A DNA stretch of 64,000 bases from Entophlyctis helioformis. Taxonomy: Eukaryota > Chytridiomycota > Chytridiomycetes > Chytridiales > Chytriomycetaceae. The stretch is from NCBI GenBank assembly GCA_025526915.1, contig JAHLKH010000004.1, positions 62,001 through 126,000 on the forward strand, written 5' to 3'. This document shows positions 14,052 through 21,659 of the stretch, one piece after another. Each line of letters starts with the position of its first letter. The stretch's first letter is position 1. Position numbers and translations under genes: made by a program. The notes beneath the pieces are model-generated. The model saw nothing but the letters and a program-made list of their open reading frames with translations. It was not told where the DNA came from and did not search any database.

Positions 14052-15765
14052 ATGCAGACAACGCAGACTGCAGACAACGCAGACGCAGCAGCAGCCAGCG
14101 ACGAGCATGTGCGCCGTCTGCAGAGCCAGCTTCAGAGCACCGTCGAGCAGCCGGCTGTGGTCGAGCCAGGGCAGCCAGGGCAGCCAGGGCAGCCAGACCA
14201 GCCGCCAGCCAAGCGACTCAAGACAGCAGCAGCAGCAGCAGCAGCAACGACCGCACAGCCAGGTGCGCCTCGCTATGTGGTGCCGCCAGCCGCCGGCGAC
14301 CTTGCATACGGCAGCAGCCACTGGGACGGAAAGCCCGCCGAGATCCACGCCATGATCCTCAAGCACGCCAGCCCGCTCACTCGCTTCCTGTGGGCCTGCT
14401 CGGCGACACGGACACACTCGACGAAGAGACCAAGCTGGAGCTGTGGATCGAAGCGTTCAAGATGGACTGGCATGGCGATCTGGACTGCTGCCTGACGTCG
14501 AGCTGACGGCCGACAACGGCTGCTCCTCGCCACTCTCGCTCCATGTACGACCGTCTCTGCAAGCGCTTTCCTCAGCACACCGAGATCGAGTATGCGAGAT
14601 ACGACGCATTCAACAACGACAACGGCAGGGAGTTCTATGACATTTACTGGAACAGCAAGCGACTGCTTCTCATCGCCATGCGACACGGCTGGTTCGACCT
14701 GGTCGACTTTACGTATCCGATCGCACTTGCTCGCATGTCGATCCGCTTTGGATGCCTCGATCTGCTCAAGCATCTCGACAACAAGTACAAGACGCTCAAG
14801 ACTGGATGGAGAAACACGAGGTGACAAGCGAGTACTGGCGCGACGCAGTCGACGTAACAGCGAGCAATGGACACCTCGATGTTATGCAGTACTTGTTTGG
14901 TCTCGGCGTGACGGCATGCACGACTGGTGCCATGGACAAGGCGGCTGCCAACGGCCATCTGCCTGTCGTTATCTGGCTTCACGAAAACAGGACGGAGGGA
15001 TGCACGACCGACGTGATGGATTGCGCGGCTGCCAACGGCCATCTGCATGTCGTCAAGTGGCTCCACAAGAATCGGACGGAAGGATGCACGACTGGTGCCA
15101 TGGACAAGGCGGCTGCCAACGGCCATCTGCCTGTCGTTATCTGGCTTCACGAAAACAGGACGGAGGGATGCACGACCGACGCGATGGATTGCGCGGCTGC
15201 CAACGGCCATCTGCATGTTGTCAAGTGGCTCCACAAGAATCGAACGGAAGGATGCACGACTGATGCGATGGACGGGGCGGCTGACTATGGCCATCTTCAT
15301 GTGGTGCAGTGGCTGCATGCCAACCGGACGGAAGGTTGCACGAAGTATGCCATGGTAAATGCTGCGGGCAAAGGCCATCTGCTGGTTGTGCAGTGGTTGC
15401 ACGAGACCCGCGGTTTAAAGTGTACGCCTGCTGCACTGGATACCGCCATCAGCAAGGGACACACGGATGTTGTCAAGTACATGCACTCGCAAAGCGGCCG
15501 CGCATCAAGCGATATTGTTAAGCAAGCGGCCATGTGGAGCAACACCAAGACGCTGCAGGACTTGCTGGATTGCGGATATGCGGTTGAACTCCAAGCATTC
15601 CGTTCTGCCAAAACAGCCGTCATCGCCAATATTCTGCTTGATAGCCTCACACTGGACCGGGCACAAGCACTGCTTGCTGAAGCTTCCCGAGTAAAAACCA
15701 GCAAGCTCACCATCAAGCGGCTCGAGTCGACCATCCAGAAACTGCAAGCGTCAGGCAGGCGATGA
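14052..15765 (+). pseudogene. Ankyrin-repeat protein with F-box-like N-terminus, reading frame broken
   Basis: The 3' part, from about 14795 to 15765, is an intact frame of ankyrin repeats with a 28-residue unit (AANGHLHVVKWLHKNRTEGC). The N-terminal part changes frame several times with no room for introns. There is a Q/P/A-rich start from ATG 14052, then an F-box-like segment (EIHAMILKHASPLTRFLW). A break follows at the GGG of 14392-14394, after which the frame continues as LLGDTDTLDEETKLELWIEAF. Further breaks fall near 14480 and 14530 and at the AA of 14791-14792. The first and last would be cured by one extra base in a homopolymer, so either the assembly has indels here or the gene is decaying. 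A 168-bp segment is tandemly duplicated (14917-15252). The second locus at 18622-20132 is a paralogue on the other strand. I call it pseudogene with reserve. Confidence 0.5.
14917..15252 (+). repeat. 168-bp tandem duplication inside the ankyrin array
   Basis: Two adjacent copies, 14917-15084 and 15085-15252, each encoding two 28-residue ankyrin units, are almost identical at the DNA level, including third codon positions. The only differences I noted are a few single bases, for example gtgatgg versus gcgatgg. This indicates recent unequal duplication of a two-repeat block. Confidence 0.85.
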
Positions 15766-18621: not shown

Positions 18622-20132
18622 TCAGTCGAAGCCGGTCAAGAAAGACGGCAGGCAGAGGGCCAGCGGCCACTGCGCCATGCCCGTGACCGATCGGGCCGTC
18701 TGGCGGCGGCGGATGCGGCGCAGCAGTTGCTGCATCTCGGCATCACCGCGCAGCTCTGCGTTCTCCATCGCCAGATGGCTGCATCCCTCGCTCCTGTGCT
18801 CGCCGAGCCACGCGACAATGTCGTAGTGCCGGTGCTCGACAGCCAGATCCATCGCCCGCGTTGTGCACCCTTCCTTGCGGTTTTCGTGCAGCCACTGGAC
18901 AATGTGCAAGTGTCCGTTCTTTGACGCGCCGTTCATCGCCCACGTTGTGCAGCCCTCGGTGCGGTGTTGGTGAAGATACTGGACAACAGCCAGGTGTCCG
19001 TACGTTGCCGCATTGTCCATCGCCCAGACGCTGCAGCCTTCGGAGCGGTTCTCGTTGAGGTACCGAACGACATGCACATGTCCGTTGGCAGCGGCTTGGT
19101 CGATCGCCTTGGTCGTGCATCCTTCCGTCCGACGCACGTGCAGGAACGCGACAACATCGAGATGACCGTTGGCAGCAGCACCGTCCATGGCTTCGGTCGT
19201 GCAGCCCTCGGTGCGGTTCTCGTGCAGCCACTGAACCACAGGCAGGTGGCCAGCCGCCGCCGCCGCGTCCATGGCCCACGTCGTGCACCCTTCGTCGCGG
19301 TGACGGTCCAGGTACTGCGCAATATCGAGACGGCCGTTCATCGCCGCGGCATTCATGGCCCAAGTCGTGCACCCTTCGCTGCGATTCTCGTGCAGGAACT
19401 TGACCGTCTCGAGCTGGCCAAAGCCCGCCGCGTTGTTGAGCAGATCGTCGGTCCATCCGTCTTGGACGTGGTTGTGGCAGAACGTGGTGACGTGCAGGTA
19501 CGCGGCTGGATACGCCATGTCGTGGATGTGCTGCAGGTTGATGCCGGCCTTGATCTGGCGGGCGACGGCAAACTGGAAAAAGTGCCAGTATCGGTCCAAC
19601 GCCTGGCTGACAAACGCCGACGGGGTTGAGGACGGCAGCATGTTCCAGTCGCGCATAGGCAGCGGAATGTTGCTGGCGGCGTCCATGTTGACGAGTGCAG
19701 ATGCAATCGCAGGGCTGGCAAGAAGCTCGGTGGCCAGCACCGAGACTGCCTGGCGCATGGCCTGCGTGTTGCAGAGCGACACCACATCTTCAACGGTCGG
19801 CACAAACTGAGGAAGGCGCCCCAGATCGCCTGTCCAGTCGATGCGGATGGCGTCCCGCCAAATGGCAGACGCAGTCGCCAGGTCCATCGTGAGCAAGGGC
19901 GGCGACAAAGAGTGCTGGCTGCAGCAGACTGCATGGGCAATCCGCAGCGAGCTTCGGGCATGCTGCTGCCGCCTGGCCAGAGGCCGACAACGGTTGCCGA
20001 CGCCGCGGGTGTTGTTGGAGCGTATCGCCGTCGCCGAGGCAGGCGGCCGCAAAGGAACTGCGTCAGCGGGCCAGCAAAGTCGATGATCATGTCACGCAGC
20101 TCCTGCGGCAGGAGGTCGAACGCAGAGGACAT
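18622..20132 (-). CDS. Ankyrin-repeat protein with F-box-like N-terminus
   Basis: From ATG 19886 a single frame runs to the stop at 18622. It encodes a helical region (WRDAIRIDWTGDLGRLPQ) and eight 28-residue ankyrin units of the form GHLPVVQWLHENRTEGCTT. An upstream ATG at 20132 opens an F-box-like stretch (LLPQELRDMIIDFAGPLTQFL) in another frame. Joining it needs an intron somewhere between about 20060 and 19900, which I could not place, or a frame break like that of the paralogue at 14052-15765. The family resembles lineage-expanded F-box/ankyrin proteins of chytrids and other zoosporic organisms, often assumed to be substrate receptors for SCF ligases. No substrate can be inferred. Confidence 0.75.
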
Positions 20133-20241: not shown

Positions 20242-21659
20242 TCAAATCTCAAATCCGCACAGGACAAAGTCGTCGCCAAAAGAATAAACCTGGGGGTGCA
20301 CAAGCTCGAAGCCAATGAGACGGAACATGCGGAGAACAGAGGCTGCGCAAACGAGATGCATGTGAGATGAAACCGGGTTGTGGCATGCATGCAGGCAGGC
20401 AGGCAGGCAGGGCGGCACTTACGAAGGTTGAAAAGTGACTTGTCAAGACAGACGACAACGCGCGTGCAGTCCAGGCAGTTTTCGGCCAGTTCAAGGAGAG
20501 CGAGGATCGAGCTGTTGAAGCTGTCTGCATCAGAGTTCCAGTGGGACGCAGGAGGGAGTTTGGCGAAAAGAACAGAATCAAAGATGAAGCCAGGCCAGTG
20601 CATCATGCCTGCCTCGCCAACGTGACGACGCGTAGAGATGACGACCTGGGTTTGAGGAGAATGCTGGGGATGGATGGGCTGCTGCTGCTGCTGCTGCTGC
20701 TGCTGAATGGAGTGGTGGTGCTGGTTGTGAATCGGCTGCTGATGGTGGGGCTGGGAAGGGAAGGGTGTCCATAGTCAGACTTGGTACGGGCAATGGCGAT
20801 GCTTGGCTGCTGTTGCTGGCCTCTCACGCGCAGCTTCTTTGCAAAGCTATCGACAGCCGTCCATTGACTGGGGACCGATGAGCGGGACACCGCGCTACGA
20901 TCTTGGTCCCCAGGGCCCCGAATGGCGGAGCCTCGGGGGGCGTCACCCCAACCACCCCGTTTTCCTACCCGCCTGCGTGCACACACAGCAGAGCACAGGC
21001 ATTGCAAGACTGTTTAGACACACGCTCGAGAGGGCGTGGACGGCATGCATGCATGGCGCTGTAAGCAGGCTGGCAACGTACCGTGAACCAGTAAGTCTTG
21101 GCCTCGCCCGAAGGGAAAACGGCCGTGCAGAGAGCCAGGACAGGGTCGAGGGTGTCTGACGGCATGCGAGACGTGCTGGCCAGCGACGATGGGCTAGCGA
21201 TGGGCTGGCTGTGCGACGCGGCAGCCATGGCCGAGGGCAGGGGAGCGGAGCCTGCGCCAATCGAATCGCTGTCGAGCGATTGAATGCTGCTGCCGCTGCT
21301 GCTGCCGCTGCGCATCAGAGCTGGCGAGGCAAGCATAGCCGAGGAGCGGGAGCCCATGGCTGGGCTGGATGGTATTGACGACGGAGACTGCGCTGGTAAC
21401 GTGCGGCTACCAGGGCGGGCGGCCCGCGAGTGGGCAAACGAAACAGGACTGCAGGACGTGCAAGATGGCAGCCATGTGTATCAAGCCGCGCATGGCAGAC
21501 GCATGTGAATAAGCTTTTGCCGATAAGGGGATCTGCCGACAAGGTGGCTGAGGGAGCAGGCACACGCTGGCGGCGAGATAGCAGGAGCACACGTACATCA
21601 TTGCTGGCATTCTGGGATCGGATTGACGGCGTTAATGTTCCTGTGAACGTCTTGGTCAA
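20242..21659 (-). CDS. Ornithine decarboxylase antizyme, +1 frameshift required
   Basis: Antizyme binds ornithine decarboxylase, sends it to the proteasome and inhibits polyamine uptake; its synthesis needs a polyamine-stimulated +1 frameshift. Exons complement(join(20242..20342,20423..20750,20828..20867,21082..21387,21597..21659)). ORF1 (129 codons, Ser/Ala-rich, ending ...SGEAKTYWFT-SMDGCR) stops at UAG 20849-20847 in the context TGT-CGA-TAG-C. Skipping that T continues as SFAKKLR, then a His/Gln-rich tract, then the conserved antizyme domain. That domain reads HWPGFIFDSVLFAKLPP, LLELAENCLDCTRVVVCLDKS and FRMFRLIGFELVHPQ, with the W and P spacing of the animal protein. The product is 278 residues (yeast OAZ1 292, human 228). 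Intron phases close only if one T is skipped. A hairpin AGCTT/AAGCT sits directly 3' of the stop. The family normally shifts at UGA; UAG here is unusual. Confidence 0.85.
20846..20855 (-). promoter_or_regulatory. Candidate antizyme +1 recoding site (TGT-CGA-TAG-C)
   Basis: Zero-frame codons TGT (20855-20853) and CGA (20852-20850) are followed by the stop TAG (20849-20847). The +1 frame starts at AGC (20848-20846) and is open to the end of the gene through two introns. AGCTT (20848-20844) can pair with AAGCT (20836-20832), giving a small hairpin in the mature exon just 3' of the site. In yeast systems CGA is among the peptidyl codons reported to favour +1 slippage. The mechanism at this site is inferred. 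Confidence 0.6.

Follow-up and report, generated by a model that had tools for sequence, protein, structure and literature searches.

At which stop codon do ribosomes change frame in the antizyme gene of the chytrid Entophlyctis helioformis? The locus is an ornithine decarboxylase antizyme gene on the minus strand of a 64,000-nucleotide stretch of contig JAHLKH010000004.1 (assembly GCA_025526915.1, positions 62,001 to 126,000), which we call the window and whose coordinates are used throughout. The original prediction, made from the letters of the window alone, placed a +1 frameshift at a rare UAG-type site, CGA-UAG-C. We find that the gene very probably encodes an antizyme whose +1 shift takes place at a conventional UGA, in the context GGG-UGA-C, and not at the UAG.

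That this is an antizyme gene, as first proposed, is clear from its domain. Translation of the minus strand from 22000 to 19900 in all three frames shows a match to Pfam ODC_AZ (PF02100) with an E value of 1.4e-9 (38.3 bits, against a cut-off of 24.2). Four antizyme chains in the Protein Data Bank (PDB; 4zgy, 1zo0, 4zgz, and 5bwa) were matched by sequence with E values of 4e-5 to 6e-5; a fifth match, with an E value of 0.14, is unrelated. One ODC_AZ match, at this locus, and one Orn_Arg_deC_N match were found in the 29.6-Mb assembly, both counts being lower bounds. The open frame at the latter match reads like a eukaryotic ornithine decarboxylase (ODC).

The first open reading frame (ORF1) and the antizyme domain lie in different, overlapping frames, as judged from the reading frames and the splice phases. 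The frame translations and a test of splice pairs bear out the earlier claim that a +1 step is needed. In this test, the later introns were held fixed, and 11 donors (21140-20985) were combined with 11 acceptors (21060-20836), requiring an intron of at least 40 nt. None of these tested pairs closes the frame without a shift, and a shift-free route exists with one additional intron. Allowing one +1 step at the first stop encountered closes 29 donor/acceptor pairs, of which 8 shift at GGG-TGA-C, 6 at CGA-TAG-C, and the remaining 15 at other stops. Thus, splicing alone leaves the shift site unfixed. The sequence TGT-CGA-TAG-C does stand at 20855-20846, and the splice model from which that site was proposed is indeed brought into frame when one T is skipped there. 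The statement that every splice phase closes only at this TAG, in contrast, does not hold.

Proteins from related chytrids show where the frame changes. Three protein searches, one of which scored only the best 8000 candidates, yielded six proteins in total: P0001 from E. helioformis itself, P0002 from Polyrhizophydium stewartii, P0003 and P0004 from Batrachochytrium salamandrivorans, and P0005 and P0006 from Dispira. P0001, the closest deposited protein, does not cover the whole gene but is identical where it does. Residues 58 to 66 of P0003 match 20972-20946 in the zero frame at 9 of 9 positions (tblastn), so that the end of ORF1, AGRKTGWLG (20946..20972), is conserved up to the codon before the TGA. 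Residues 63 to 99 of P0002 match 20932-20819 in the +1 frame, with 25 of 38 columns identical (65.8%; E = 5e-10, tblastn). This conserved +1-frame stretch (GSAIRGPGDQDRSAVSRSSVPSQWTAVDSFAKKLRVRG; 20819..20932), of which the last nine bases lie past the assigned exon end, has stops in both other frames. The P0003 zero-frame match and the P0002 +1-frame match bracket the frame change between 20946 and 20932, with the protein conserved on both sides, and the only zero-frame stop in this interval is the TGA at 20945-20943. The frameshift site is therefore assigned to GGG-UGA-C at 20942..20948, preceded by UGG-UUG, with the U at 20945 skipped.

This comparison with related chytrid antizymes, made with their proteins, places the shift roughly 100 nt upstream of the site first proposed. 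Conservation of the +1 frame in P0002 begins 83 nt upstream of the UAG, and P0003 follows the zero frame without a mismatch in the nine residues before the UGA. The TAG at 20849-20847 lies inside conserved +1-frame coding sequence and is therefore out of frame; the CGA-UAG-C (20846..20852) is read there as part of VDSF and does not belong to the ORF1 frame. CGA-UAG-C is thus almost certainly wrong as the shift site, judging from this protein conservation. Since the shift is placed at the UGA, there is no need to claim a UAG antizyme. Upstream of the TAG, the +1 frame stays open for about 55 codons, up to a stop at 21016, rather than for the roughly 80 reported earlier.

Several observations weigh against the UGA assignment. 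None of the deposited proteins spans the shift junction. The P0001 model jumps from 21082 to 20645 and skips the whole shift exon, the P0002 model runs into the preceding intron and does not contain AGRKTGWLG, and the P0003 model lacks the DAPRG..SVPS part, passing from ..GWLG directly to QLAAV... P0004 agrees with the zero frame for AGRKTG only, and a protein search limited to residues 66 to 165 returned P0001 alone. At the splice level, acceptor 20973, which the UGA model uses, scores 8 of 12 versus 9 of 12 for acceptor 20868, and a CTNAY branch-like motif precedes acceptor 20868 and not acceptor 20973. Finally, the evidence is entirely from sequence, with the relatives compared as deposited proteins. 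The two Dispira proteins gave no convincing match beyond the antizyme domain. Four chytrid gene models (P0001 to P0004, from Entophlyctis, Polyrhizophydium, and two from Batrachochytrium) depart from the corrected model around the shift exon, and they could be revised.

The departures of these models also bear on the alternatives. A 79-nt intron could use a donor inside GGG-UGA (20868..20946, minus strand, GTGACG...CCCCAG), and its removal would join ORF1 to the domain as GG/T CAA (the slash marking the junction) in one frame, yielding a single uninterrupted protein without any shift. P0003 (5 member sequences), with its ..AGRKTGWLGQLAAVENFAKKL.., looks spliced at the equivalent place. The acceptor scores 9 of 12, and CTCAT, a branch-like motif, lies 15 nt upstream of the end of the supposed intron. 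In P. stewartii, however, the +1-frame protein encoded by this supposed intron is conserved (17 identical columns of 22; E = 1e-7 by BLASTP, in a single comparison). The donor of the intron scores 5 of 9, the lowest of five distinct donors scored (the others reach 6 to 7 of 9). Gene finders that meet an antizyme frameshift tend to invent introns. The partial text of PMC2375905 states that annotation pipelines cannot recognize such frameshifts. We consider such bypass splicing unlikely as an explanation of the locus. If the P0003 protein were nevertheless made by this splice, the B. salamandrivorans genome should carry GGGT at the same place. A form in which both processes operate, with the splice donor coinciding with the frameshift site (GG/GUGA), most transcripts shifting under polyamine control, and a minority losing the 79 nt, strikes us as distinctly improbable; if true, minority splicing would make antizyme without a shift and so provide a polyamine-independent supply.

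The acceptor at 20868 is shared with the model of the original prediction, in which a 40-nt exon (20867-20828) contains a +1 shift at CGA-UAG-C. Its frame closes with one skipped T, and its acceptor, at 9 of 12 and with the branch-like CTCAT, scores one above the preferred acceptor. The donor is common to this model and to the UGA model, and the splice-site scores do not decide between them. Under this model, however, two conserved segments would have to be intronic, the zero-frame AGRKTGWLG and the +1-frame stretch upstream of the UAG, and the codon two before its shift site is GGC, not UGG. The AGCTT/AAGCT hairpin described as a possible stimulator after CGA-UAG-C does exist, but its stability (-6.0 kcal/mol, z = -1.07, with 23 of 200 shuffles as good) is at chance level. 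What was taken for a 40-nt exon is the 3' end of a longer one (145 nt, 20972-20828), whose first 105 nt were dropped because acceptor 20868 was used. We regard this model as very unlikely; the CGA-UAG-C site and the 40-nt exon are rejected on protein conservation and not on the splice scores, which slightly favor 20868. Least credible of all is an assembly error or a pseudogene, in which a base error at the junction GGGTGACG mimics a frameshift. The frame change falls within a few codons, and one assembly was seen. Antizymes normally carry such a frame change, however (PMC2375905, partial text), related chytrids conserve the two frames, one frame in each of two relatives, and the models of P. 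stewartii and B. salamandrivorans are likewise broken around this place.

The context of the preferred UGA site is in line with other antizymes. With acceptor 20973 in use, ORF1 ends in UGG-UUG-GGG-UGA-CGC. UGG stands two codons 5' of this site, a position that it also holds in known antizymes (PMC5009743, partial text). The stop at antizyme shift sites is as a rule UGA; across 153 antizyme sequences, its U alone is universal, according to the Figure 1 legend of PMC2375905, and the antizymes of Agaricomycetes use UUU-UGA (PMC4505036, in part). In human OAZ1, UGA_C lowers termination relative to UGA_U (PMC9841425, partial text). By these sequence comparisons, GGG-UGA-C fits within the known range of antizyme shift sites. 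After the +1 step, the ribosome would read GAC GCC CCC, giving the protein G-DAPR. Human antizyme 1 likewise has DAP right after its shift. The chytrid antizyme is thus mostly ordinary, and its only mildly unusual point is the P-site codon, GGG rather than the usual UCC. A search of a vertebrate-like consensus, allowing up to three mismatches, misses the chytrid site and gives two matches elsewhere, where 0.34 were expected. A literature search, which did not reach the main antizyme survey, found no GGG-UGA antizyme and no paper on antizyme frameshifting in chytrids.

Downstream of the UGA, the RNA is predicted to be structured. The 81 nt from 20944 to 20864 fold as two adjacent hairpins (-39.3 kcal/mol). 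Predicted hairpin 1 (20916..20938, minus strand) pairs CCCCGA with UCGGGG around an inner GGC/GCC and begins 4 nt after the UGA. Predicted hairpin 2 (20868..20913, minus strand), from the same fold, has a 9-bp outer stem, CUGGGGACC/GGUCCCCAG, and the residues encoded by its two arms, PGD and VPS, are conserved in P0002. Only 2 of 500 synonymous recodings of the same peptide are as stable as the 81 nt, and with a codon table drawn from more of the gene, none of 300 are. The 81-nt window was picked after the fold of 20946-20865 was known, and other lengths were run to offset this choice: windows of 90, 99, and 117 nt are equaled by 1, 1, and 3 of 300 recodings, respectively. In twelve 81-nt control windows from exons 1 and 3, between 13 and 283 of 300 recodings are as stable. 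Dinucleotide shuffles of 20946-20865 give z = -2.61, with 2 of 200 folding as well. Other comparisons temper this signal: shorter windows of 60, 69, and 75 nt are equaled by 7, 26, and 9 of 300 recodings; three control windows in exon 1 are also low, at 13, 13, and 14 of 300; and dinucleotide shuffles of three other stretches around the site give z values of -0.42, -0.92, and +1.04. Rfam searches (E up to 10) returned three chance matches and no antizyme element.

We propose that ribosomes would translate ORF1, 108 codons in the reconstructed gene model, as far as UGG-UUG-GGG-UGA-C, where a share of them would terminate at the UGA. The remaining ribosomes would step +1 at GGG and go on with GAC GCC CCC into the ODC-binding domain. 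The exact slip would occur at GGG-UGA, where the glycine tRNA on GGG could, by reasoning from base pairing, re-pair with GGU through the first two bases. The two predicted hairpins directly downstream may stimulate the step, as their modeled fold suggests. By analogy with known antizymes, polyamines would raise the level of shifting, and the product would shut down ornithine decarboxylase, which would place the shift under polyamine control.

This arrangement can be set beside known systems. Eukaryotic antizymes with UCC-UGA, such as mammalian OAZ1, share with the proposed chytrid model two overlapping ORFs, a +1 step at the UGA that ends ORF1, a UGG two codons 5', structured RNA just 3' (predicted in the chytrid), and a C-terminal ODC_AZ domain. 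They differ in that the chytrid P-site codon is GGG, not UCC, and its UGA is followed by C, not U; moreover, the chytrid has two predicted stem-loops and no recognized OAZ1 pseudoknot. Agaricomycete antizymes (UUU-UGA, as in Coprinopsis cinerea) have two adjacent 3' stem-loops, like those predicted in the chytrid, but their P-site codon is UUU whereas that of the chytrid is GGG, and their structure starts 19 nt 3' of the shift site, in contrast to 4 nt after the UGA here (PMC4505036, partial text). Saccharomyces cerevisiae OAZ1 (GCG-UGA-C) shares the UGA_C context and a non-UCC P-site codon; beside it, the chytrid step from GGG to GGU would, by the same pairing argument, retain two base pairs with the glycine tRNA. 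The GGG P-site codon offers a useful test of whether re-pairing of the P-site tRNA aids +1 shifting, and the chytrid case adds an early-branching fungal phylum to the set of antizymes.

Which tRNA reads GGG was addressed by pattern searches of the genome. A UCC-anticodon pattern occurs at five places, all five of which ARAGORN calls tRNA-Gly(TCC). Two CCC-anticodon patterns had no matches in the genome; a third had 97 matches. Ten of these loci were retrieved, and in the 4 of them that were given to ARAGORN no glycine tRNA was called. In a general tRNA search, 63 candidates out of 551 were scored, and none of the 30 fetched from these 63 was a glycine tRNA. These results hint that GGG may be read by tRNA-Gly(UCC), given a search for a CCC tRNA that was not exhaustive. 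Most of the 97 pattern matches are variants of CATTCCCATGCGGCACGGCTGGTTCGA, and by sequence these apparently belong to a protein-coding repeat family (LLIPMRHGWFDLVDF; four copies read). One copy of that repeat pattern, with three mismatches, lies in the window at 14671-14697 on the plus strand. Among the 30 best-scoring tRNA loci fetched, 16 (L008 to L023) are tRNA-Lys(CTT), at least 15 of them with equal score.

The remaining anatomy of the gene follows from the same reading; all of its exons are on the minus strand. Exon 1a (21597..21610) is reconstructed as the start codon plus MPAM(I), with a phase-2 donor, GTACGT. At 21610, ATGCCAGCAATGAT abuts this GTACGT, and joining it to 21364 gives MPAMIPAMGS (MPAMIPAMGSRSS...). 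The relatives have similar N-termini, MPAMM in P0002 and MPAMI in P0003. Because the splice from exon 1a to 21364 yields an N-terminus of the MPAMI type, the deposited P0001 start at 21357 is probably internal. Exon 1b (21364-21082), the main part of ORF1 (..LDPVLALCTAVFPSGEAKTYWFT), ends in a phase-0 donor, GTACGT; P0001 is 100% identical to it from 21357 down to 21082, and its motif DPV.ALCTA...TYW.T is kept in P0002 and P0003. The shift exon (20828..20972, 145 nt) lies between the acceptor ACGCAG, which ends at 20973, and the donor GTGAGA, which starts at 20827; it opens in the zero frame with AGRKTGWLG and then runs on in the +1 frame.

The exon anatomy around the antizyme domain had been predicted correctly. 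Exon 3 (20423..20645) holds the first part of the domain, is identical to P0001, and carries the Pfam ODC_AZ match. Its start could lie elsewhere, at one of several further in-phase CAGs upstream, none of which alters the frame. A CAG/glutamine-type repeat at 20740-20646 (minus strand) in intron 2, near the exon 3 acceptor, provides several in-phase alternative acceptors. Exon 4 (20242..20342), also identical to P0001, completes the domain (..FELVHPQVYSFGDDFVLCGFEI, stop) and shares 75% identity with P0003 over 32 residues. In the reconstructed model, the full protein has 254 residues.

The minus strand also carries, a short way past the antizyme stop, an open frame (18622-20052) with repeated ...EGCTTWAMDAAAANGHL... 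units, which by sequence look like ankyrin-type repeats. A DLLPQELRDMIIDFAG stretch in another frame precedes this repeat frame.
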